Part shown: one piece after another, positions 4,876 to 58,861 of the stretch
Position numbering within the stretch: position 1 is the first letter of the stretch
Layout: every line of letters starts with the position of its first letter
Assembly: GCF_022201045.2 (NCBI RefSeq)
Contig: NC_068562.1
Location: 5,996,001-6,060,000 of the forward strand
Reading direction: 5' to 3'
DNA from: Citrus sinensis
Lineage: Eukaryota; Streptophyta; Magnoliopsida; Sapindales; Rutaceae
DNA length: 64,000 bases
Program-made: the position numbers and the translations under genes
The notes under the pieces: generated by a model
Told to the model about the DNA's origin: nothing
Databases searched by the model: none
Seen by the model: only the letters and a program-made list of their open reading frames with translations

Positions 4876-7800
4876 TCAATCCTTAGATAGGAAATGCACC
4901 CGTGCAAGGGTGTATTCTTTCCCAGCTATCCAAACGCCAGTTTGTGACCATTGCACATCCTCCCAGTCAAGATTTTCTTCTATTACCTGTCCAAGAAAAA
5001 AAATTCAAATAGAAGACAAAAGAACCACAACTACATCGTTTCTAAGCAATGTACAGAACAGATGGATTTATATACCAAGCTAGGCCCACCATGCATGTTT
5101 GCTATGCAAAATATTACATCAATATGCATATATGATTGCACATGTGGAAATTTAACTGGATAGGCAAAATAGATGCAATTTTGCTAAGTTGGACCAACAT
5201 GCCCTATGCTGAGATGGGCAATAGGAGAATGCAAAGTGGAAGTAGATACCAAGCACTCATCAATACAAAGTTTCTGGCAACTCAGGAGTGCTTCCAAGTT
5301 CCAAAGATGAACCTCCATTCGTTTTAGTTCTAAACATGCAATGATGTCGAAAGAAACAAGTGAGATGAAGTACCTCCACATGCTCAGGAGGCAGTGGGAT
5401 CCCAATGGAACGCATAACTTTTTGAGGAAGGGGCTTCTTGCAACGAGACCAACGAAAAACATCAGTCATAATATTATCACCATCATTCTTTTCCCCATTT
5501 GTGGAATGTAAAAGGTGATTTTGAGACTTTTCTGTCTCTGTATCATGTGATTCAGATGCTGGAACAGCTTTAACCATCTTCTCTCCCGCAAAAGAGAGTT
5601 CATACCTGCAGATAACAACTTAAAAGATCAGAAAATACAAACCATCACCAAGAAATTGCCACATGTACTTTAGAGATTCCAAAATCCAGAAAATTATTCT
5701 GATTTGAGGCTATAAATCATTTCTTCTTACACAAACAAATGACAAGAGACTTTAATTCAAGTGACTAGTTTCATTCATAACAGATATGAAATGAGAAAAT
5801 CCTATCAGTTAATTAAAAAAAAAAAAGAATTGAGAAAGTTGTACCCCAAGACCAACAGGAACAAGCAGACTGCAGAACTTCAAAGCTATATGCAGCTCTT
5901 CATAAAAGCAAAGTCTAATCCTATTCCATCAACTTGGAAACTTCACTAGGATGCTTCCGGATCTTAAATTTGGAACTTAGCATCTCCAGTTAAGTTCAGG
6001 TTTAATGCATCTGATCTGTAAATTGTCTTATTACAATGTTCCACGAAATCACATGATGATGTAAATATGTGATCATATCTCAGTATAGTTTCTTTAATTT
6101 GATCATTGGTGCTATGTAGCATTAAGAACAAAAGAGCAATAAGACAATAATAACATCAGAATAGAGGCATATAGAAAACAATTACATAACAAATTTATTA
6201 AAACAAAATATCATGTTCCAAAATCCCAAATGACAATCAAACAACCTGTGCAAACAATTTATGTCAATAACAAGATAGGAAGACTACCTGCAAGAATGTG
6301 TTTCTAAATAAAGAACTTCCCCCTTCTTCAAACGTGCTGATGTATAAAGGGGCTTCTTCAGACCTTTATCAGCAACAATACTTATACTGTACTTAATCCT
6401 GAATAAGTTTGCGGGCATTCAGATCAATTAGTATCAGAACACTTGAATATCGAAGGGATTCAAAAAATAAATAAATAAATAAAAACCAAGAAAAGCAATT
6501 ATCAGGTATATTCAATTGTTTCTAACTGTAATGCTGAGAAAAGCAAGGTCACAAAGTCCCAACTATCTGTGCACATAAACATTCAAACAAATTTTCCAAC
6601 AATAAACTGATATATGTACGTAAATGCATGCTAGAAATTATGAAAAAGAAGATTATATGCATACCAAGGTTCATTGCAGAGGTTGTACTGAATTGTGACT
6701 TCTCGCACGAATCTTTGTTGCCTCAATGCATTCTGAAGAATGAAAAACATAAAGCGAGCCAGTTGTTATTTAATACAAACAAAACATATACATAAATGCT
6801 CACACATACCCACATGTGCTACACAAGAATATGTGATTCAAAACATAATTGTCTTTGCAGTCCAAGTTATCTGACAATCATTTAGAAGCTTTGTTTAAGA
6901 CAGATGGTTTTCAGAGCTGGCCTAACTCGGTGGCTTTGAAAGTCTTCTGTATATAAGCTACATTAAGACAAAGAGGGTTTTCCAGGTGCACCATGCCAGG
7001 TGTTATTTGACAATCTACCAAGTTGAATACACAATGAACACACTACATTTGCCAATTCTGACCCTAATTAAAGATTTAAATGAACTAGGACAAATGGAGA
7101 GATATAATGGAAAGTCATCCACTGATGCAATCCCAACAAACATAAGTAGCTGAGTGATACCGATGCTGCAGCCCTAGTAGTCATTGTCCGTTCCACTGCC
7201 ATGGGAGCAAGGGTAGGCTCCACTGTTGATGAGTGAGTAAGACAAGGCTCTAGATCAATAGTTCCACCTCCTTTCTGCAATTTAAAAAACAGAAATTCAT
7301 ATGTGCATAACTATTAAAAAGTGTTAAACAACCTGTAAGCTACTAACTTCTACCAACTCAATAGCACTTGCTAAAGTTTTTATGCAAAAGAAAAGGGCAT
7401 TTTAAGTCCAAAAAATTAGAATTATTGATTGAATTCCGACTCCATCAATCCATGCAACCATCCAATCTTTAACGAAAAAATGAAGCATCATTAATGAGAC
7501 ATCTGAAGCAGAAAAAGGCAGAGATAACTAGTTTGTCACCTTCACAATGCAACACTTCTCAACACGGTAACTACAACCACTTCCAGCCCCCCAGGCACGG
7601 GAACGTACGTTATTTCTTTGTTCAGATGTGTAACCTAACAAAGCTAGTGGAGGTTAGCCTTGTTAAAATGCACATAAGTAAAACAAACATTGTGATGGGA
7701 ATTGCAGAAGTGCAAAGAGATAAAAAGTGAGCATAAGTTACAACTAGTTAAATAAAGAAAAATTAATCAGCTTCCGAATATGCTTCAGTCAATAACTCAG

Positions 7801-10800
7801 CTCGAATTCTCTAATAACTATTATTGGGTTGAAAGCCAATGATAAGCATAGAGAAGAATAATGCACTGCATTATTCAGCACATTACTTCTCCATATCGAC
7901 AAAGTAGGACTGTGGAAGTGTCATCCAGGAATAAGACTTCTGCAAACAGAGACATAAAATTGTCTCCCAAGTTGTCTACCACAGTCTATCCAAACACACT
8001 TTTCTTACTAATTGTGAACACACATGAGGATTGTGTTTTGTTTTGGCACAAGGTGTTGGATACAACTTAAGAAATGTAGACACAATCTATAACCATCAAG
8101 TCCAAACAAAAGTCAAGATCTAAAATACTTTAGAAAATCAGAAAAACAGCAAAATATCAATTTCAGCTTCTTTTCCACTAATTGTAAACTCAAACTGAAG
8201 ATAGCCACACTACCCTTAAACATCAGTTGGCACATACATGTGACATTTGCTCATGAACAGCTAAAGTTGAATAAGATTTTTATATGGAACAGAATATACA
8301 TAGACAAAGTAGAATACGACAGGAGCTACAGTATATTATTAGCGTTAGCAACATATATAAAGAAAATTTAGTGGCATTATATTCACTCACAATCTTGTGG
8401 AGGTAAAACCCGGATTGTGGCACGCAACTCTTGAATAGCAGATGGAGGAGGAGATGCAGTGGGACGACAGTAACCTGTGTGCATGAGAACTGGAAAGCAA
8501 TAACCCAAGATCAATTATAGATCTCATATGCCAAAAACAGTGAGGCAAAGACAATACACCAAGATCAACTATAGATCTCACATACCAGCAACAAGATCAG
8601 AGTCATCTGTGTATATATCGGTTCCCCATAGCTGACCGCCTCTGACCTAAACATAATGAACTTACATAACTAAGAAGTAGAGTTACAAAATATGCTGTTG
8701 TAACTGCTATCAACACATTTCCAGACAAATGGAATTTGATATGTAAGGCTATAACTAGCAACACTTCAGAATAATGTGAAGTAGCATGATCTTACTTGGC
8801 GATTTGTAGCAGTAACATGCTCAGCAGGTATCCGAATTTCAAGAGTGGGACCATTGTTAACAATTTCACCATTTTTATCAGCTTGAGATGCTTCATACTC
8901 CTTCCACAACTTTAACAGGTCTTGCATGCATTCACCAACTTTATAAACAACAGAAGATAATTCAGCTTTACCTGAAACACCAGCAAAGAAGTAAACTAAA
9001 ACAGCTACATGGGGAAAAGGAAATTCATCTAACTTCGAAAGCTAAAAGTTTTCTGCTCCATCACTGAGCACCAGATGATCAATTTCCACCACATATCAAT
9101 AGTTTTGAATTAACCCCTGTCACTTCGTATGCAATGATGCAATAATGCAAGAAATGACAAAAACCGTGCATAATTTTTTTCCGCAATTTCGAGAGAGCAA
9201 ATAAAAGGAATTAAACTAGTAGTTGAAAATAGTATCTCAATCTTTACCAATTATAGGGAGACATTTCGTTTTTCAAGAGACTTACAGTCTTCAAATTTCA
9301 CCTGCATTATTAGTGAGAACTCTAAACTGCTCACAACTAATAAAAATGTCAAGTCTGAAATAATTACATCTCCAATAGTCGTGAAATAGAGAATTCAGAG
9401 GTTTTAAAAAAATTTAAATATATTAGACTTCACTGGAGTTTCCGATTTTTCCAAAAACATTGGGTTCCAACTGGGGAAAGCTTGTCATACTAGGCCAAGG
9501 CAGACACATTAAGAATCCCACCTTCGCAGCAAGTAGGAAGAGTACAACCCTATGAGGTCATAGCTACTAAAATATATACTTCGGAGAAGACAACACTGTA
9601 AGCAAACACAGAAAAGAACAATCTTGGAATTTTGAAATAAAAGGATGAAATACAACCCTCATAATAGTTTGCAATTACTAAATCAACAGACGCATGAACA
9701 AATGAACCGAATGTGTATGGCAATGCAGTTATTATCCACACGCAGATATGCCCTGAAACAAAGTTAAAACCTAAAGACAAAAGGATTTTTTTTTTTCCCA
9801 GAACAGTATCACTTTCCTGAGTCACAAGTTCCTGTCAACCAAAACAAGCACATAAAGTTTGAGCTTGAGATGAGAGACATTGCAGCTTACCTTGAGATCT
9901 GCAAAAGCAAGAAAGCAGAAATATGATCAGTGAGAGGTAAGCCACACATGTAAAAAAGGAATAGAAATGGTTCCATCAAAACAAGAAAGGTAAGTTATTA
10001 GATTTGGTGCCACACAATAAAAATCCATTTATTGTATGAAGATACTGAATCAATTTCAATACTTTTATTTTGTGAAGTCAAGGAAAGTATTTTTATGACT
10101 ATAACAAACAAGTCAATAACAAATACTTGGTGAAATAGCATTTATTGGACAAAGGGAAAAAAATCACTAATAGAACAAGTGATGTAGGGCGTACAAGCAT
10201 TGTAGCACATGACACATAAATAAATGCTACAGTGTCAATAAATTCAGCTAAACATCCTCATCTAGAGCTCATGATAAAAAATCATCAATTCTAGTCCTTT
10301 ATCTTTATAAATTGAATGTTGGAAAACAACCTAAATGATGTTGTTTCTAAAAGAGTCAAGGATTCAGGCATCCACTAGCTGCAATTTTCCAAGCTTATAA
10401 AAAAATGTTTGTCCTAACCTCAGCTCATTATAAAATTCAAATAAATCACAGAGAACCTTAGTAATACCAAAACAATCAGGCAAACACTTCAGATAAATCA
10501 TAAACATCTTAAATCCAACTTAATCTTCTTCATATACAATAAACAGAAGAACAAATCTCTGAATCGGAAGGATTATTTTTTCCTCTGCCCAGGTTATTAA
10601 ATGCACCATTGTAAATAATAATTTGTTTAGTAACGATGGATGTGTTGGGGCACATTCCATTTCCACACATACAAAATAATGCAATTTCGACTATTAAGTT
10701 AAAAATGGTTGAAATTGGAGCATCTGAGAAGAAAATGTGAAACACACCCTTCATTATCTTGACTACGGGACCTAAACCGGGGCTCACGATTTCCAACTTG

Positions 10801-16515: not shown

Positions 16516-17392
16516 TTTTTGCTTCACCGTACAGGTTTCCCTTTTCTTTTTACAATTTTGTGAGGAAAATCACATGTTCGGACTTCGGAGCCCCTTTTTG
16601 CCACATAATTTTACCCAGTTGTATCAGCAACCCCAAAATGTGCCGCAAGGTAATCGATATGTTGTTGAATCTACCACTGAATTTTATTTTATTTTATTTA
16701 AATGATGACAATTACTGTAGCGACGCCGTCGTTTTATTTTCATATGCCTCATTTTTGTAGGTGACCCTATTTAGTTGAATTTTATTCTTATTAAATTTCT
16801 ACGCACCATTTATGCATCTAACAAATGTTTATAGCCAATATCTATGTTTATATTGATGTTTTCTCCCTACTCCATGGGGATGCTTGACTTTAATCAGAAT
16901 AAAACGTGTGAATTACGTGCATCATCTAGAATTCTGGCCCAAAATATTAAACTTGTTGAACCGCATCAATTATGATGAATATGCCCTCTAAATATGCAAT
17001 TCTATTGCAGTAAAAAAAATCAGCGAAAAATCAATAAAAGAATCAGCTTCATAAAAAGCACATAAATTGATTATTTTTGAATTTTTTTTTTATTTTAAAA
17101 AATTTCATGCTACTCTTATTTTAATTCAAACAATAAAAAAAAGAAGAAGTTGGTTGGATGATTTTTGTCTTCTTTAATAAAAATAAAAATAAAAATAAAT
17201 TAAGGTTTTTAAAAATATTTGGGTGATTTGAGTAAAAGAAACCGATAAAGCTCTTCTTAAGTCATTAAATGCTATGGGATGCATAGCAAGTAGTCAAGTA
17301 CCTTAGCAGCGCAGGAATCGGTTAACTAACACATGGCTTTTTAAAGGATTATGATGTGGCCAAGAAGGAAAAAATACGAATACATGCTGGAG
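16516..17392. other. Spacer, no gene seen
   Basis: This is the SET gene 3' UTR and AT-rich intergenic DNA, with short A/T runs and an AAAAT repeat near 17180-17200. I see no coding or structured element before the target duplication of the Mutator-like element at 17393. Confidence 0.5.
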
Positions 17393-17401
17393 AAATAATT
17401 A

Positions 17402-18892
17402 GAGAAATGCTAAAGGTCGGGAACGCTAAGATAATACTGAGAGAAATGACATGTTGTGTTGCCGTTTCGTATTTTCACAGCTCCCCTCAATATGACTAAG
17501 AAAGCGAACCCCCACGTGAAAAAATACTTCAGCTCAAGTCATTTTTGCCAAAAGCTGCCGTTTGACCCCACACTCAAGTCACTTTTGCCAAGTGAATTCT
17601 GCCCCCCCACGTAAAAGTTTGAGTTCTCTCCTTGCTCATGACCAAGCAAAGTTAAGTTTGAGTTCTCTCCTTGCTCCTTCACTCGTTCACTTCTCCTTCG
17701 TTTCTTGTTCACTTATTTGCTCATCACAAACCAAGATAACTTGCTCCCATTAATTTCAAATATTAAACTGCTTTGTTGAGTTCTACAATTTGAAAGTACA
17801 ATTCTTTCAACATTCTAACAGCATCCTAGTTCACAGTTAGATATTAGAAACAAATATTAACATATTTAATGCCAATCTTTATTCCATGAGAACTTAAAAT
17901 ATCCAAAAGAGATGCATCTACCCTACATATCTATTTACACAATAAGTGTCCCTTCAATTCCAACAGAATATACATGCCTCCATCTTAAGATTTCATATGG
18001 CACTGAAATTAAAAATTTCGTCAACTGATAGAAGCCACCACACAATGGCAAAATATATATGTTTATTATCAAAACATAAGGCATCATTTGAGCAAATTAA
18101 AGAGACAACTATTCTCAGCCATTCTTCTTAATATGGGATAGACTTCTTGTATCGTCATATCCACTCTCAGCACCATAGGTTGGTTGTTCCTTATACAATT
18201 GGCGCCCTTTACAATCACTCATTTGAGGGACTTTTGCTCGACACTTTGGGTGGAGCCCTCTCTTTTCTTGTCTCGGGAATGACTGCACGAACAGCCGTGA
18301 TATTTTTCTGCTTTGCTGTGATTAAAACTGTTGATGATCACTCTGGGCTTTGGTTGCCTGGCAATATCTTCCACTTGTTCTTCCAGAACAACACCGCTTA
18401 TCACGATGTCCACCATCAACTTCAGGGCTTGAAGTACAACTATTCTCAGCCATTCTTCTCAATATGGGATAGACTTCTTGGAACTCACATGCCTTACCAT
18501 CTAGTCAAGCTACCTGAAGGAGGTTTTGAGGCTCGGCTAAAGAAAGACTAGATGCTATTAAGACAATTTGACTGTATCGTAAATTAATTATTAAAATAAT
18601 TATCAACAATATAATTACCAAAATAATTGTGGGAGTTGGAGTTCATGTGGGAATGCTGAAGAAGGAGTTGAAAATAGAAAGGAAAAGGAGTTGAGAGGGA
18701 GTGAAGGAGTGCTGGAACAGATCTGTTGAAAGCGAAGAAGGAAGTGGAAGAAGGAAAATGATTTGAAAGTCACATGGGGGACAGATATCTGTTACTCACG
18801 TAGGGGGTGTGGGAGGTGAGAGAACGAAACGGCAGCACAAACTGCCGTTTCTCTCAGCGTTCTCTAAGAGTTCCCGATATTTAGCAGCACTC
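17402..18892. mobile_element. Non-autonomous Mutator-like element carrying a host gene fragment (Pack-MULE)
   Basis: A 1,491-bp element is bounded by a 9-bp target duplication, AAATAATTA, at 17393-17401 and 18893-18901. Both ends start GAG and share terminal inverted repeats of about 75-80 bp. Alignable blocks include TGCTAAA, TCGGGAAC, CTGAGAGAAA and GCCGTTTCGT (left end on the plus strand, right end on the minus strand). A 9-bp duplication with long inverted repeats is diagnostic of the Mutator superfamily. There is no transposase inside. Instead it carries a fragment of a sphingolipid hydroxylase gene (18105-18551) and about 600 bp of unidentified sequence, with a short direct repeat (GAGTTCTCTCCTTGCTC) near 17623 and 17659. 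Confidence 0.88.
18105..18551 (+). pseudogene. Captured fragment of sphinganine C4-monooxygenase (SBH type)
   Basis: From 18150 an uninterrupted frame runs to the stop at 18549-18551 and encodes the C-terminal half (about 133 residues) of a fatty acid hydroxylase-superfamily sphingoid base C4-hydroxylase. The di-iron histidine motifs HSQHH and HDVHH are intact, as is the C-terminal DRLLGTHMPYHL region. The N-terminal half, including the first histidine box and the start codon, is absent. In its place, 18105-18149 is a second copy of 18436-18480. That copy is in a different frame from its partner. The fragment lies inside a Mutator-like element, so it is a captured gene piece and not a working enzyme gene. 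Confidence 0.85.
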
Positions 18893-19011
18893 AAATAATT
18901 ATCGATCAAGATAACTGCAGATAAGATTGGTTAGCTTAGTTGTAAAAGAGAAAAAAAAACATATATAGTATTTTTTATTTTTTTTTGGTAAAAAAGGGGC
19001 TCTAAGCAGAG

Positions 19012-19300
19012 CTAAAGAACAACCGAGCGAGAATGGGCAATCCCATAAGCATCCTTAAACAAAAAGGGGCTAACTCCCAACGGGAGAGTATGGTAAATAG
19101 TAAGACCAAGAGGGATGGAGAAAGCTAGGCTCGCCATATAATCCGCTGCAAAGTTAGCTTCTCTGTAAATATGGGAGACAGAAACTTGCCAATCCATCTT
19201 TAGATAATCCTTGATAGCTCGAATCAGAGAAGCATAGTGATTGATTTCCAATGTTGGCTTGGTCACCAACTGCAGCACACAACGACTATCTACATATATA
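19012..19300 (-). mobile_element. LINE-type RNase H domain fragment
   Basis: The minus strand encodes about 95 residues of the RNase H-like domain found at the C-terminus of plant L1-type LINEs and their domesticated relatives. Recognisable pieces are VDSRCVLQLV, YASLIRAIKDYL, WQVSVSHIYREANFAADYMASLA and PLGVSPFLFKDAYG, which is the usual order. The frame ends in a stop. No reverse transcriptase is nearby, so it is a 5'-truncated remnant. Confidence 0.75.
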
Positions 19301-19692
19301 GTATTTTTTTATTGAGTGGTTGGAGATTAATTTTAATAATGTCGTAACATAATTTACAAGCAAGGTCCTGGGAGAAGGTAAACGCAATAAAATATAAGAT
19401 GTTATATTAGAGAAGAAGAGACACAATCACGTAATTTGATTTTCTTTAGTTTTTGCATGCATCATATGAGTTGGCAAAAGCTCATCTTCTTATTTTACGT
19501 ATTATTTTATAGCAAGTAGAACCAAAAAGTGAAATAGGAGACAATCGATTATAAAATAAATTTTGGAAGATCAAGGCAAGGAGACAAAATATATATATTG
19601 ATTGTTTCTTTGCTTTCGCATCAGCATGACAAAGAAGTGAGAAGCAAAAAATCTAAGAAGGTTGAAGATTTGCAAGCTTAGCTGTGAATGTA

Positions 19693-20712
19693 ATGGAAAC
19701 GTTCTTCATATCACATGGATCGCCCACGTTGCCTATTGACGAATCGTTACAGGTAAGGCATTTTCTCAAGGCTTGGAAAGAGCAAGTGTTTTTGCGAAAA
19801 CCCAATTCGATTCTGGTGATATCTGCACACTGGGAGACCGACGTCCCCACTGTCAATGTCGTTCGCCAAAACGACACCATCTACGATTTCTATGGCTTTC
19901 CAGAGCAACTCTATAAGGTTCAATTACTTTTATTTACTTTAATCTATTTTTGGTATAAAATTGTCAATCTCAGTATTGTTTATTGATTAATCAATTAACT
20001 CTGCCCCTGGTCCTGGGACCAGCTAAAGTATCCAGCTCCAGGAGCTCCTGATTTGGCAAAGAGGGTGAAGGAGCTGCTTAGGACGTCCGGGTTCAATCAT
20101 GTTAAAGAAGACACAAAACGAGGGCTGGACCATGGGGCATGGACTCCACTCATGCTAATGTATCCAGAGGCCAACATCCCGGTTTGCCAGCTATCGCTTC
20201 AGCCCGAAAAGGATGGAACATACCATTACAACGTAGGCAAGGCGCTGGCCCCTCTCAAGGACGAAGGCGTCCTCATTATTGGTTCCGGAAGTGCCACTCA
20301 CAATCTCAAGGCTCTACAATTTGATGGCGATTCGGTTGTCTCCTGGGCGTCAGAATTTGATTGCTGGCTTAAAGATGCTCTCCTTCAAGGAAGGTAATCA
20401 TGTATGTGGAAGTGCTAATGCTTTTAGCGGCGCATCCGCTGATTTCTTCTTCTTCTTCTTTTTGAAAAGAAAAAAAAAAATTTAATTGCTCTATTCTGTT
20501 GATCTTCCTCCAGATATGAGGATGTGAACCACTATGAAGAGAAGGCGCCGTATGGGAAAATGGCTCATCCTTCGCCAGAACACTTTTACCCATTGCATGT
20601 AGCCATGGGTGCCGCGGGCGAAGATGCAAAGGCTGAACAAATTCACCAAAGCTGGCAACTCTGTTCTCTTTCTTGTTCCTCTTACAAATTTACAGCCGCC
20701 ACTGCCAGCTGA
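19693..20712 (+). CDS. LigB-type extradiol ring-cleavage dioxygenase, copy 1 (DODA-like)
   Basis: Three exons, 19693-19917, 20023-20393 and 20514-20712, encode 264 residues, the usual length for plant DODA/LigB proteins. These are non-haem Fe(II) enzymes that open catechol rings. In betalain plants a paralogue makes betalamic acid; outside that lineage the substrate is unsettled. Putative metal ligands are His8 in SHGSP, His46 in SAHWET and the His of [10 protein letters not shown] near the C-terminus. His112 (LDHGAW) and His168 (GSATHN) are also conserved. The ATG at 19693 is preferred: the ATG at 19688 is followed at once by a stop. It is the first of three tandem copies. The C-terminal tail (KFTAATAS) differs slightly from its sisters. 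Confidence 0.9.
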
Positions 20713-22829: not shown

Positions 22830-23867
22830 ATGAGTACTGTGAAGAACACGTTCTTCATATCGCATGGATCGCCGACGCTGTCTATTGACGAATCGTTGCC
22901 GGCGAGGCATTTTTTAAAGGCATGGAAAGAGCAAGTTTTTACGCAGAGACCCAATTCAATTCTTGTGATATCCGGTCACTGGGAGACCGACGTTCCCACT
23001 GTCAACGTCGTTCAGCAAAACGATGTCATCTATGATTTCTACAACTTCCCTGAGCAGATGTACAAGGTAAATAGCTTATAAATTCATTTTTTTGGGGAAA
23101 AAAAAAAGTGAAACGAATCAAATGTATTTGTATCTCATATATTCAGTGGTTAAAAAATTGGACTTTAATTTATTGTTACCACCACACCAGCTAAAGTATC
23201 CGGCACCAGGAGCTCCGGAATTGGCAAAGAGAGTAAAGCAACTGCTGACAGAGTCTGGGTTCAATCACGTCAATGAGGACACAAAACGTGGGCTTGATCA
23301 TGGCGCGTGGGTTCCGCTCATGCTAATGTACCCGGAGGCCAATATCCCTGTGTGTCAGCTCTCTGTTCAGACCCGAAAGGATGGAACTCATCACTACAAC
23401 ATGGGCAAGGCTCTAGCGCCTCTCAAGGACGAAGGTGTACTCATTATTGGTTCTGGAAGTGCCACTCACAATCTCAGGGCTCTCCAATTTGATGGTGACT
23501 CTGTTGCTTCATGGGCTTCGGAGTTTGATAACTGGCTTAAAGACGCCCTCCTTCAAGGAAGGTAAGTGTAATAAATTAATTATATATACATACAGAGATG
23601 GCATTACATCGATAAAAGTTAAATTTTTGAATTTATGTAACTGCATGCTTTATTTAATTTGTTGCTACATACAGATATGAGGATGTGAATCACTATGAAC
23701 AGAAGGCACCGTGCGCAAAGAAGGCTCATCCTTGGCCCGACCACTTTTACCCACTGCATGTAGCTATGGGTGCTGCCGGCGAAAATGCAAATGCAGAACT
23801 CATTCACACCAGCTGGCAACTGGGTACTATTTCTTACTCCTCGTACAAGTTTACTGCGGCAGATTAA
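22830..23867 (+). CDS. LigB-type extradiol ring-cleavage dioxygenase, copy 2 (DODA-like)
   Basis: Three exons, 22830-23066, 23191-23561 and 23675-23867, encode 266 residues. The gene structure matches copy 1, and the central exon is exactly 371 bp in all three copies. The motifs SHGSP, SGHWET (where copies 1 and 3 have SAHW), [14 protein letters not shown] and [10 protein letters not shown] are all present. The ATG at 22830 adds three residues before the shared N-terminus. The 3' UTR starts with a CA dinucleotide tract (23883-23917). The protein is probably soluble and active. The substrate is unknown. Confidence 0.92.
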
Positions 23868-26237: not shown

Positions 26238-28752
26238 ATGATGAGGCAGAAGATTCCAGTTATTGCTGCAAAGGCACGAAACTTTTTCTTATTCTTTTTT
26301 CTTATAAATTCAGTTACTCTTTTCATTTTCATTCATTATTCTGCAAATCCATCGAACGTCACACGTGGGCAACAGTCACGGTTGAGTGTGATGGACACAT
26401 TCTTCATATCACATGGATCGCCGACGTTGTCTATCGACGAGTCGCTGCCGGCAAGGGGTTTCTTACAGGCATGGCAAGCGAAGGTCTTCTCACAGAGACC
26501 CAATTCAATTCTGGTGATATCTGCTCATTGGGATACCGATTTTCCCTCTGTCAACGTCGTTCAGCGAAACGATACCATCCACGATTTCTATGGCTTCCCC
26601 AAACAGATGTATGATGTACGTATCCCCTCATTCCCATATCTATTCGATTTCTTAAAATTTTTAACATATTACAAATTCCTTTTTTTTAATTTGTTTAATA
26701 TCCATGTGAGCATTTCATGAACCATACCCTTTCTTTTGGTTTTAAATTTGGATAATATTCATAATAATTGGTAGGTCTAAGACGAGTTTAGATCATTTAT
26801 ATTTAGACCCTTAATAATATTTTTTTTTTAAAAAAAAAAGTTGATTTCACATAATGCTAATAGACTAATGGTGGGTTTTGTACTTTGTAGAGAAGGTTAT
26901 GGTTTGTGCTGTGCACGTTTTGACTGTGTGGTGGTCGATAGGCTGGGTTATGGTCAATTTTTGTGGGTTAATTTGATCATGATTTGGTTGTAGCTTTTCA
27001 ACTAATATATTATAGAAATTTCTGGGAATACTTTCTTTATTTAGAGCTCTATATTTTACTAGTATCTTTCACATTTACGTGCATTGGCATACTTTTGTTG
27101 GCCATTTCTTCTTCATCAAGAAATTATTTCATCCTTTATATTTACTACTTCTACTGTCATGTCTTTACTTTAAAGTAGAACAAAACCTCTTGTATTTGTG
27201 GTTTGTAGTTATATAAACTGCCAAATTTGATGAAGACAATGACGCGCTATAAAATTGACTGTATATATCTCATGTAAAAAAAGGAAAATGAATCAATTGC
27301 TTTTAAGGATTCAACGTGTTGCTGTTGTAATCAAAATCGAGGGAAAATACTTTGCAAAATTTTGGTCTGTTTTGAAATGCATGAACAATATTGCTACTGG
27401 AAGGGAAATTGAAAAAACAATTGATCAAGGTTATTTTGTCAATGTTGAATGAGGTTTGTGATCAATCTGTTATATGTTTGTATTGATACAATTCGAAAGG
27501 TCATAATCAATTCAAATCGTGGTTAATGTAATAGTGGAGGAAGCCATTTTATCAGTTGCATACATCACAAATATGGTGAAATAGTTGTATTGAAGTTCTA
27601 ATATGCTAATACTAATGGGATGAAGAAAGCTTGAGAGTGCATGACTTGATGACGTCTCACAGACGTGCATATTTCTACTTTAGTAATGTGCTGCCCATCT
27701 TACCAGCTCAAGTATCCTGCACCAGGAGCTCCAGAACTGGCAAAGAGGGTCAAAGATTTGCTCAAAGCATCTGGCATCAAGCACGTTAATGAAGATAGAA
27801 AACGTGGGCTTGACCATGGTGCGTGGGTTCCACTCATGCTAATGTATCCAGAAGCTGATATTCCTGTGTGCCAGCTCTCAGTTCAGATGCATCATACTGG
27901 AACTTATCATTACAACATAGGCAAAGCATTGGCCCCTCTCAAGGAGGAAGGAGTCCTCATAATTGGTTCTGGAAGTGCGACACACAACCTCAGGGCTCTT
28001 CAATTTGAAAGCAGTTCCATTTCATCATGGGCTTTGGAGTTTGATAACTGGCTTAAAGATGCTCTCCTCGAAGGAAGGTAATTATTTAATGTTTGCTGCT
28101 AGAACCCATTCTTAGTTTTATGTTGTCAATTTGAGTTTGATTTTGATTTTCTGTAAATTACACCATTTAAACACTGTTTCTTAGGGATGGTTTCTATGGT
28201 TGGGACAGGATATGGAGTGGCCATTGCTTTTAGAAGCTGTTCATTTTATTTTTTATCATTTGGACCAATACACGATTTTATTTTAGTTTTTCTGGGATCG
28301 GGTCTTATATTAGGAGGTCTGGGAGTGGTATTATTTACCAACCCAATTTATTCTGCCTTTTCCTTGGGATTGGTTCTTGTTTGTATATCATTATTCTATA
28401 TTCTATCAAATTCCCATTTTGTAGCTGCCGCGCAACTCCTTATTTACGTGGGAGCTGTAAATGTTTTAATCATATTTGCTGTAATGTTCATGAACGGCTC
28501 AGACTGTTCTAAAGATTTTCAGTTGCTTTTAGAATTGAAGTACTTGATTCTTCCTGCAGTTATGAGGATGTGAACCACTACGAGCAGAAGGCACCACACG
28601 CAAAAAAGGCTCATCCTTGGCCGGAACACATTTATCCATTGCATGTTGCTATGGGTGCTGCTGGCGCAAATGCTAAGGCCGAACTTATTCACAGTAGCTG
28701 GCATTATGGTGCTCTTTCTTATTCCTCGTACCGGTTTAAAACATCCAGATAA
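26238..28752 (+). CDS. LigB-type extradiol ring-cleavage dioxygenase, copy 3, with possible membrane-targeting N-terminus
   Basis: The exons are 26238-26615 (or from 26391), 27707-28077 and 28560-28752. From the ATG at 26391 ([11 protein letters not shown]) the protein is 262 residues, like its sisters. From the first in-frame ATG at 26238 it has 51 more residues, including a hydrophobic stretch ([20 protein letters not shown]) that could act as a signal peptide or membrane anchor. Copies 1 and 2 have no such extension. The motifs [25 protein letters not shown] and [10 protein letters not shown] are present. Intron 1 is about 1.1 kb, far longer than in the sisters. Intron 2 holds a plastid ndhG insertion at 28261-28521, but the splice sites are intact. 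Which start is used is open. Confidence 0.88.
28261..28521 (+). other. ndhG: Nuclear plastid DNA (NUPT): fragment of ndhG
   Basis: Inside intron 2 of dioxygenase copy 3 an open frame encodes a near-perfect stretch of plastid NdhG (NADH dehydrogenase-like complex subunit 6). It runs from GPIHDF through [26 protein letters not shown] and [22 protein letters not shown], covering roughly residues 5 to 90 of the about 176-residue subunit. It lacks the start and the C-terminal half. The frame has no stops. The upstream ATG at 28187 adds about 25 unrelated residues. It is a transferred plastid fragment, not a nuclear gene. Its ends were placed by recalled ndhG sequence and are good to about 10 bases. 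Confidence 0.88.
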
Positions 28753-39036: not shown

Positions 39037-41344
39037 CTAAAATTCAGTGTCGAAGCAAGCTAACATGATCTTGGAAACCATGGACCTTGCAAATGGGATA
39101 TAGCTCAAGCTATACCTATATTGTACAGAGACAATTAGAAGAACACAAGAAGTAAGCAAATCGGGATGCAATAATGTACATGTGAGGAATCAATAAAATG
39201 GACAACAGGACAAGGACTATCATTTTCCATATCCATATAAGTGGAATCAATTCTTTTACAAGCAACACACATCTAATAGTGATTCAATAAAGCAGTACAG
39301 ACAAAACAAGTGATTCTAAAGAATGGTCCGGCTACGGTGCAACTGTGGTACCGTGCCACAGTTGCATCCAGCCGTTGGATTCACTTAGATGGGTGGGTCT
39401 ATTGGGATCCAACGGCTGGGTGCAACTGTGGTACGATACCACAGTTGCACCACAGTTTTTCCCTCTAAAGAATTACAGCATAAAACAGAACCTTCAATTC
39501 CCTAGACAATGAAAACTGTACCATGAAACAGAAACATTAGTTATAGCCAGAGCATTAAGGTTAATATATTTTAGTCCATTGTAGATACACATAAATATAC
39601 ATAAATAGTGTATATCACTATGGGAATAGCATGAGTAATATGAAAGATGAATCATTCAAAGTGAATTAATCTAAAGGTCGACAAGTTGTTGCAATTTGTA
39701 TAAGATAAAAGGGTACACACACCCCTTTAAGAATGATCATTTCAAAATTTCAACAAATCAACTAATTTATGAATGATGTTTGCATTGTGGACTACAGGGG
39801 CATGAATTCATCAGTCAAATTTGCATGTTAAAATGCTAAAGAATGAAACATAATCATTTCAATTCGTGTAAGGTCTAAAATTTTGTATTAGTGGATGAGA
39901 CTAAGAAGCAGATGTGCAAATGAAAGAGTACAAAAGTGATAAGGTATACCAAATTAGTGCTCCGAACTCTAAAATCAGCGCCAAAAGTGTTAATAACTTG
40001 TTATGAACCTGCTCAATGCAATCAATGAAAGATCAAATTAAATCCCCAACTGATGTTATTGCTCAGTCTAAAGATATATTCCGTACATTGGAATTTAATT
40101 ATTTAAAAAAAAAAGAAAGGAAGAGAAACAACAAGAAGATTGCAACTTACATAGAGAGCAGAAAACAGGGCAATAATCATACTTGCAATATATATAGCTG
40201 TTGCGTAAATACGAGCAGGATCAAGCATCATTGTCACTTGTCGTTTTGGGCCTATGAGGAATGCTGTGCTGCCATTAAAAAGAACAGGGGGAAAAAACCA
40301 GCTTAACGTCCGAAAGAAAGGCTGGATAGCAGGACAAATTATGAAAAGTACCACAACGTTTTCCAGTGACTTGAGAAATTATAACAGATTTTGTGAATGA
40401 AAATGCCTGACTAAATGAGGAAAGAAACAAGCATTTTGAACCAGTTTCACAAAATATAACTTACCATGTTATTTTAACTCGAAGAAACTAATTTACTAAA
40501 AGAACAATTTTACTTAGAGAAATGCAAGAAGGAGAAGAAAGTTATCATAAGAAAGTTAATACATAGTAAAGATGGTAAAGTGACGACAACAGGAAAGGAA
40601 GACTAAATACAGATAAGACAGAAATAAGATTTCTAAACACCCAGATTGTAGCATCCTAGGATGTTAAAATACAGCATTGGCCACTCAAATCAGAAATGTA
40701 CTATTTGCAAGGATTCCTATTCTGGAAACATAGAAAAAAAAAGAAAATTTCATTCACCTCTGCATATTTTCAATGTAAACTGCCACCAAGATGGCATAAC
40801 ACATACCCACATGTGCAGACATTTTTTGGTTAGCCCTATCACCATAGACAATATAATACCAGAATTCAGACACAAACCTTCCGAGTGAAAGCAAATTCCC
40901 AAATGTGAATGTGATTCCGAACTTGATTGGATTAAAGAAAACAAGTAATGACTGCCATGAAAAAGGAAAAGATCAAAATAGTCAGTAATATTAAAAGCCG
41001 CCAGATTTATTCAAGCCAAGACCAGTAAGAAACTAGTAACCTAACAAATCAAAATATAAAATCATGTTAACTCTACCTCCATGGTGAAATATTTACATCT
41101 GAAAATTCATATTTATCTTGTAATCCATAGGAATGGAAGATGGTTAACAAACCAATTGAGTCAGTCAGATACGTTAAAAAGGGTGTCCAAAGTATGCACT
41201 TAGCCATTAAGACATGTGGGCTGTGGCTAAAATTTCATAAACATGTCAAAGTACTGTGGCTGAACACTCAAGGACATGAATCAATGTCCAGGATAATAAA
41301 GTCGGCGTTGGTTTTCTTGAAAGCACCTAATGGAAAATCCTAAC

Positions 41345-56647: not shown

Positions 56648-58861
56648 CAGAGGCGGATCCATTAGTGGGCTATACCGGGCTGTAGCCCGGTATAGAAAAG
56701 GAAAAAAAAATCAAATATGTTAGTTAAAATTACAATCATGCCACTAATAATTAATTACAAGAGTGCCATTGAAACTAAAAAAAAGGAAAGAATCTTTACC
56801 TAATTCACTTTTTCTTTACTCTCAACCGACAACAATTCTCAAAGCCAAGAATTAAAAAAATCGATTGTCCTCTTCACGATTCTTCATCTGCTTCGTCTTC
56901 CAATTTCTTGGGCTTTGCATGTTTTTCTACTGGTATGCTTTCACAACTTATATAAAAATCTTATTTTTTTGTGATGGATTTTACTAGTTTGCTCTATATT
57001 TTATTTTGATTCATTATTTTGAATTTGTAATTGGCTATTTAGTTTTTGTGATTGGTTTTGCTGATTTGCTCTGTAATTTGTTTTGATTCATTAGTTTGTA
57101 AAGTTTCAATTTTGATTGCTATCCATATATGTCCTGGTAAAACTCAAGCAAATTGAATTTAATAGTTGTACAACTTTTAAAATGGAATTATTAATTGTTT
57201 AATAATTAAATTATTTGATTGGCTTAATAATTAAAGATGAAAAAAATTTAAATTGTTTAATTTATTTAAGCATGTTAATTAAGCTTGTATATTATTTTGA
57301 ATATTTGATTGGCTTTTTTTTAATAAGTTTTGTGATTTATTAGTTTGAGTTGATTTATTATGGTTATTTTTTCACTAATAATTTTTTTTATAATGGAAAA
57401 GATGAAAAAAATTGAATTGTTTAATTTATTTAAGCATGCTAATTAAGCTTGTAAATTGTAATTATTAATTAATTTATTAATTCTTATGTAGTTTCATGTT
57501 ATGGTAATTTATAGGTTATAATGTCCGATAAATCCAAGCCGAGGAAACTCTACTTTCATTCTTTGCCAAAGTAAATGGCGGTCAATCATCAAATGAAACA
57601 AGTTCTCCGTGCAATATTGATGCCTCAAGTTCTCTTAAATCTCAAAGAGCTGAATTTGAGAAAGTTGATACTCCAACTAGTATTGACACCCCTTATTGAG
57701 ATGTTTGGTGCAACTCTTGAAGTTCTAAGAAAGATGATTAATGATGGGCCCAGTCGAGATATGCGTGGAGAAGCTAAAAGTGCGTATAGAGAAATGAAAT
57801 CCTTCGAGTTTGTGTTCATTTTACTTTTGTTGCATAGAGTTCTTGGGATCTCTGATATTCTTTGCCGAGCATTACAAGCAAAATCTTTAGACATCTTGAA
57901 TGCTTTGAATTATATCACAAGTACTAAAAGGCTTTTGCAAGAATTTCGAGATAATGGTTGGGATGATTTTGTTAGAAGTGTGGAATCATTTTGTGGAAAG
58001 CATGACATTAGTGTGGCTGATATGAGTGTTCGTTATATGGAAGGTACAAGACGCTCTTGTCAACAAAAAGATTATATTACAGTTGAGCATCATTATCACT
58101 TTGATATATTTAATGATGTAATAGATTTTCAATTGACAGAGATAAATAGCAGGTTCCCAGAGCAAACTATGGAACTCCTTACTCTAAGCTCGGCTTTGGA
58201 TCCAATCGATGGGTTTAAATTATTTGATATAGATCGTATTTGTTGTCTTGCTGAGAAATTTTATCCTCATGATTTCACTGCAAATGAGATTTTTGCTTTG
58301 AGAAGAGAATTGGAGCATTACAAGTTTGATGTGCTTTCTCATCCACTTTTTCAACAAGTTGCATCACTTTCTGAGTTATGTCGACGATTAATTGAAACAA
58401 AGAAGTCACAACACTATTTCTTGATTGATAGATTAATTCGTCTAGTGTTGACTCTTCCAGTGTCTACAGCCACAACAGAGCGTGCATTTTCAGCCATGAG
58501 CCTTATCAAGACATCACTTCGCAATAAGATGGAAAATGAGTTTCTTTCAAATTGTATGGTTGTCTATGTTGAAAGAGAAATTGCAGATACTATTGTTCCA
58601 GAATCCATAATTGATGAATTTTATTATTTGAAGCCGCGAAAAGTACAATTTTAGTTATATTTTTGTATTGACTACATTTTTATTTTTTATTTTTATATAA
58701 TTATTTTGTTTAAAGTAATTATTATTTAGTGTAAGATTTCTAATGCTCTCATCTTATTATGTGTATTTTATTTTTTTCTTATAAAATTTTATGTTCACTT
58801 TACAATATAACCTTCCTTTTAAATTAGCCCGGGGTACTTTCAAATCCTGGATCCGCCCCTG
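56648..58861 (+). mobile_element. Internally deleted hAT transposon
   Basis: An 8-bp target duplication, CCCATGCT, flanks the element (56640-56647 and 58862-58869). Terminal inverted repeats are CAGAGGCGGATCCA on the left and TGGATCCGCCCCTG on the right (one mismatch). Just inside the left end is a perfect subterminal palindrome (CTATACCGGGCT/AGCCCGGTATAG, 56670-56695). The 2,214-bp element encodes only part of a ZMYM1/TTF-type hAT transposase, so it could move only with help from an intact relative. Clean ends and duplication suggest a fairly recent insertion. Confidence 0.93.
57521..58654 (+). pseudogene. Truncated hAT transposase (C-terminal half)
   Basis: The N-terminal start (MSDKSKPRK, ATG at 57521) hits a stop at 57572-57574. 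The familiar continuation (FFAKVNGGQSSNETSS, then SLKSQRAEFEKVDTP) lies in another frame, up to about 57700. An internal deletion then removes the TTF zinc finger and DUF4371 region. The frame from 57575 resumes at about MFGATLEVLRKMINDGPS and runs to the stop at 58652-58654. That C-terminal part is intact: SARYMEGT-like (here SVRYMEGTRRSCQQ), HHYHFDIFNDVIDFQL, LSSALDP and the hAT dimerisation motif LPVSTATTERAFSAM. It cannot make a full transposase. Confidence 0.85.

Follow-up and report, generated by a model that had tools for sequence, protein, structure and literature searches.

The segment from 17402 to 18892 of the analyzed Citrus sinensis DNA is a real element of 1,491 bp with a target-site duplication (TSD), and it is very probably a Pack-MULE, a non-autonomous plant Mutator-like element (MULE) that acquired the 3' half of a sphinganine C4-hydroxylase gene, either directly or in an ancestor, and carries it as an inert passenger. 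The window, that is the whole stretch of DNA analyzed, is 64,000 nucleotides long. The Pack-MULE label is based on inverted ends, an exact 9-bp TSD at these ends, a host-gene fragment between them and the lack of a transposase frame, a combination for which the name is used in the literature (PMC3310237). The features are listed below in positions of the window.

17393-17401, plus strand: left TSD copy, AAATAATTA, exact (9/9)
17402-18892, no strand assigned: putative non-autonomous Mutator-like element (inverted ends plus exact 9-bp TSD)
17402-17545, plus strand: left terminal inverted repeat, about 80 bp ungapped and about 144 bp gapped
17533-17676, plus strand: subterminal region of the left end, in which two short direct repeats (repeat families D2 and D4) are spaced 39-40 bp apart
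17710-18104, no strand assigned: A+T-rich internal filler, 30.4% G+C (from composition)
18105-18149, plus strand: extra 45-bp partial copy ending in TTCTTG, 44/45 identical to 18436-18480
18144-18551, plus strand: presumably captured C-terminal FA_hydroxylase fragment with stop codon (PF04116 match, His clusters HIHSQHH and HDVHH)
18436-18480, plus strand: in-place copy of the 45-bp segment (from the repeat search)
18552-18680, plus strand: A+T-rich sequence following the stop codon, with 27.1% G+C and no poly(A) (from composition, its origin putative)
18755-18892, minus strand: right terminal inverted repeat, about 80 bp ungapped and about 138 bp gapped
18893-18901, plus strand: right TSD copy, AAATAATTA, exact (9/9)

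The two copies of AAATAATTA are identical at all nine positions and enclose exactly 1,491 bp, confirming both the intact 9-bp duplication and the element length proposed in an earlier reading made from the letters alone (the sequence-only reading). This duplication lies within the 9-11 bp given for MULEs in an extract of PMC3310237. Since AAATAATTA is frequent in the A+T-rich window (13 copies versus 5.07 expected, with none of 100 shuffles reaching 13), the TSD alone proves little. When spacings of 1,000-3,000 bp were sampled, 332 of 17,730,141 positions showed an identical 9-mer. The TSD carries weight because its copies abut both inverted-repeat ends. An exhaustive joint scan was made of all identical 9-mer pairs lying 300-6,000 bp apart, single-base runs having been excluded beforehand (n = 7,996). 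End identity of at least 38/60 was shown by this pair only, which reached 45/60 compared to 33/60 for the runner-up, indicating that this is a real element with its TSD.

The ends are long terminal inverted repeats. Aligned without gaps they are identical at 15/20, 30/40, 45/60, 57/75, 60/80 and 62/85 positions, in agreement with the 75-80 bp or so ascribed to them earlier, and a gapped local alignment scored 102 over about 140 bp, whereas the maximum among 481 control pairs of random window segments was 63. A blastn search revealed no other copies of the element ends in the window. A 13-base end pattern allowing up to three mismatches matched 78 times, counting the ends of the element itself, versus 63.45 expected; as 4 of 100 shuffles also reached 78, this excess was given no weight. 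With about 76% identity between the ends over 75 bp (57/75, ungapped), the element would not be obviously young.

The absence of a transposase, also asserted in the sequence-only reading, was borne out by Pfam scans (E limits of 0.5, 1 and 0.1) of the stop-to-stop frames of at least 30 amino acids overlapping 17300-19000: none of the 35 frames matched a transposase family, as expected of a non-autonomous element. A match to DUF3397 on the minus strand (18643-18795, E = 0.021) was below the Pfam cut-off and was treated as chance. We also considered as a second captured gene a 53-aa minus-strand frame in the internal filler (17710-18104), which by eye resembles a last exon; this candidate was discarded, as it had no Pfam or NCBIfam match and its best PDB match had an E of 0.11. 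The Pack-MULE reading is weakened by the lack of a source match for this filler and for the stretch at 18552-18680, the latter being possibly captured 3' untranslated sequence.

The host-gene fragment between the ends was recognized by its match to PF04116 (FA_hydroxylase, the fatty acid hydroxylase superfamily), with an E of 1.2e-17 for the stop-free frame of 139 codons at 18132-18551 and of 1.9e-16 for the piece of 133 codons plus stop that begins at 18150. At 65.0 bits the match is well above the cut-off, which is 31, and it extends from profile position 24 to the end of the profile, starting at 18144 with the F of FLYRHIHSQHH (codons TTC TTG). Only two His clusters, HIHSQHH and HDVHH, are present in the frame, and the N-terminal half of the hydroxylase is missing together with the upstream His box. 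The claim of a C-terminal hydroxylase half with two His clusters is thus upheld. More precisely, the fragment would presumably derive from a sphinganine C4-hydroxylase (plant SBH1/SBH2) rather than from an FA_hydroxylase in general, and the missing upstream part presumably includes the first His box of the SBH family. The G+C content of the fragment is 44.6%, compared to 34.2% for the window and 27.1% and 30.4% for its neighbours inside the element.

A functional sphinganine C4-hydroxylase has three His boxes in a single frame that runs from a start codon. The fragment has two, and the open frame of about 133 codons described earlier is confirmed from stop to stop but not from a start codon, since the first in-frame ATG, at 18279, lies behind HIHSQHH and leaves 90 codons. 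With the N-terminal half absent and the first ATG in this position, catalysis is unlikely. Because the sequence encodes half a protein and lacks a start codon before HIHSQHH and, presumably, the first His box, it is most likely carried as an inert passenger and not as an enzyme.

Searches for relatives of the fragment gave six chance-level matches among PDB sequences (E of 0.23-0.9) and no NCBIfam match with the hydroxylase piece. None of the 13 pattern-matching stretches in viral contigs and none of the 131 in prokaryote genome contigs was confirmed as a match to the hydroxylase protein. Within the window, tblastn detected, besides the extra 45-bp copy, a single match at chance level near 47.6 kb (E = 0.52) and no further hydroxylase. 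The failure to find the parent in the window or in the viral and prokaryote collections, together with ends that have diverged by about one quarter, would also suit a decayed hydroxylase gene that was already at the site, the inverted ends being two separate insertions or chance. This we consider extremely unlikely: the exact 9-bp duplication directly borders both ends on their outer side, the frame lacks the N-terminal part of the hydroxylase, no other match in the window is convincing, and the Pfam match begins abruptly at 18144. The Pack-MULE reading is supported by the TSD, the inverted ends, the host-gene fragment and the lack of a transposase; the gene capture, which the sequence-only reading had called clear, and likewise the parent gene, are what we infer from these features.

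The 133 codons and the stop are uninterrupted by an intron, which could indicate that a spliced and reverse-transcribed hydroxylase message was copied into the element. However, the absence of an intron may only reflect a single exon, and no A-run such as would mark a processed retrocopy was seen by eye after the stop codon at 18551, making capture at the RNA level unlikely.

A further feature of the element, overlooked in the sequence-only reading, is a partial duplication of the fragment. A 45-bp segment of the hydroxylase 3' part is present twice, in copies that are 44/45 identical and 331 bp apart, whereas the 16-20 bases flanking the two copies on either side show no evident likeness. The extra copy is directly upstream of the main fragment, and its last six bases, TTCTTG, are also the first six of the PF04116 match. 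These bases are read as Phe-Leu in the main fragment, whereas in the context of the 45-bp segment they are part of Leu-Leu-Gly in another frame. Since the joint fits both contexts, it suggests a template switch. The simplest reading would be a backward jump of synthesis by 331 bp at the 6-bp TTCTTG match, either during capture or through a later tandem duplication followed by truncation. It assumes that the Phe-Leu codons before TATCGTCAT in the parent were TTC TTG. A third TTCTTG occurs at 18265, within 18105-18560, so that the hexamer is not rare locally, and for this reason, as well as for the assumed parental codons, the template switch is presented here as an interpretation of the joint.

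The preferred course of events would be as follows. Gene capture most likely took place through repair synthesis within the element, which would first have copied a short 3' piece of the hydroxylase gene. Synthesis would then have slipped back 331 bp at TTCTTG, a switch that we suppose to have been at the DNA level and in this direction, and recopied the gene from just before HIHSQHH through the stop codon, which would have left 45 bp in duplicate ahead of the main fragment. A Mutator-family transposase from elsewhere, presumably acting in trans, would have inserted the element and duplicated 9 bp of the target.

The 45-bp copies differ at 1/45 sites and the element ends at 17/78 alignment columns (15 mismatches and 2 gaps), a contrast that is significant if both pairs began identical (Fisher p of 0.0028 with gaps and 0.0051 for mismatches alone), 45 bases being too few for dating anything. 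Either the 45-bp duplication is younger than the element ends or the ends were never identical. The first of these would agree with a tandem duplication inside the element after capture, in which most of the first copy was subsequently lost; this would give the same TTCTTG joint. We hold this order of events as a tentative possibility, somewhat less probable than its alternatives taken together, since it requires a second event (the truncation at 18105) and the clock comparison is weak, as the two ends may already differ when such an element arises.

To the right of the element, a start-like ATG at 19693, located 801 bp downstream of the element end, belongs to the first copy in a tandem array of three related genes. 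These copies (19685-20699, 22838-23860 and 26383-28738) are 74-82% identical in their matching DNA pieces. LigB, an aromatic-ring-opening extradiol dioxygenase family, is matched by frames of the second and the third copy, and the genes may be DOPA-dioxygenase-like. The span of the third copy also contains a frame (28157-28573) matching Oxidored_q3 (NADH dehydrogenase chain 6; E = 1e-18), which appears to resemble plastid ndhG and, given this likeness, is probably plastid DNA in the nucleus. A reverse-transcriptase-like RVT_3 (RNase H-like) fragment on the minus strand (19012-19308, E = 7.9e-8), 120 bp right of the element, is probably a LINE-type remnant. Elsewhere in the window, positions 1-2617 and 5583-8199 form a direct duplication, 98.5% identical over 2.6 kb from the window edge, which is either an artefact of the assembly or recent in origin, as a tandem or segmental duplication. 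A 116-bp palindrome at 39336-39451, matching its own reverse complement at 81%, is possibly a MITE, and a 359-codon frame at 57575-58654 contains the hAT transposase dimerisation region (E = 1.1e-8). No RNA families or tRNAs were detected in the window.

The open frame is kept, and 801 bp separate the element end from the start-like ATG of the first putative LigB-type gene. These two observations could indicate that the element is expressed, producing sense or antisense hydroxylase RNA that regulates the parent, or that it serves as a promoter for the downstream dioxygenase gene. Promoters in MULE ends are reported in the extract of PMC3310237, and a section of PMC8277862 puts the transcribed share of plant Pack-MULEs at 40%. 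On the other hand, captured fragments are described as usually non-functional in a portion of PMC13317346, though numerous ones are expressed, and we regard a role of this kind as improbable. Less probable still is the combination of a young capture, a backward template switch directly readable at the 6-bp match, and hydroxylase RNA (sense or antisense) that tunes the parental gene via small RNAs. The inert Pack-MULE described above is preferred.

Compared with known systems, the cargo is presumably like plant SBH1/SBH2, the PF04116 match being the tested part of this assignment, in having the C-terminal half with HIHSQHH and HDVHH. It is unlike them in that the N-terminal half, presumably with the first His box, and the upstream start codon are missing. 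Literature searches for Pack-MULE together with "sphinganine hydroxylase" or "fatty acid hydroxylase" found no report, so a hydroxylase cargo may be unreported within the literature searched; Pack-MULE cargo varies widely.

The element has the same non-autonomous build as the Pack-MULEs of rice, tomato, Arabidopsis and maize, namely a 9-bp TSD, inverted ends and a host-gene fragment. With 1,491 bp it is somewhat above the size peaks of 1,000-1,200 and 1,300-1,400 bp given for tomato Pack-MULEs in the extract of PMC3310237. The same extract gives end identities of 87, 94 and 92% for three tomato Pack-MULE copies, compared to 76% (57/75) here, and these higher values weaken the Pack-MULE reading. 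Counts of 2,853 Pack-MULEs in rice and 220 in tomato appear in that extract, and the portion of PMC13317346 gives more than 3,000 in rice, derived from more than 1,000 genes. With thousands of Pack-MULEs known, one more changes little, and the element is a neat instance of gene capture in a form that is well known.

According to the same portion of PMC13317346, a review of 2026, the mechanism by which DNA transposons capture unlinked gene fragments is undiscovered. As a clean single-locus example, the element bears on how such elements acquire genes, since its partial duplication may record a template switch. Animal Pack-TIRs, which the section of PMC8277862 describes as made by gap filling or fork switching, have breakpoint microhomologies of 1-36 bp with a median of 2. 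The 6-bp microhomology-like joint found here is like theirs in fitting template switching, whereas the citrus element differs from them in being of a plant and of Mutator type, and in having its joint inside the captured gene rather than at a breakpoint between element and filler.
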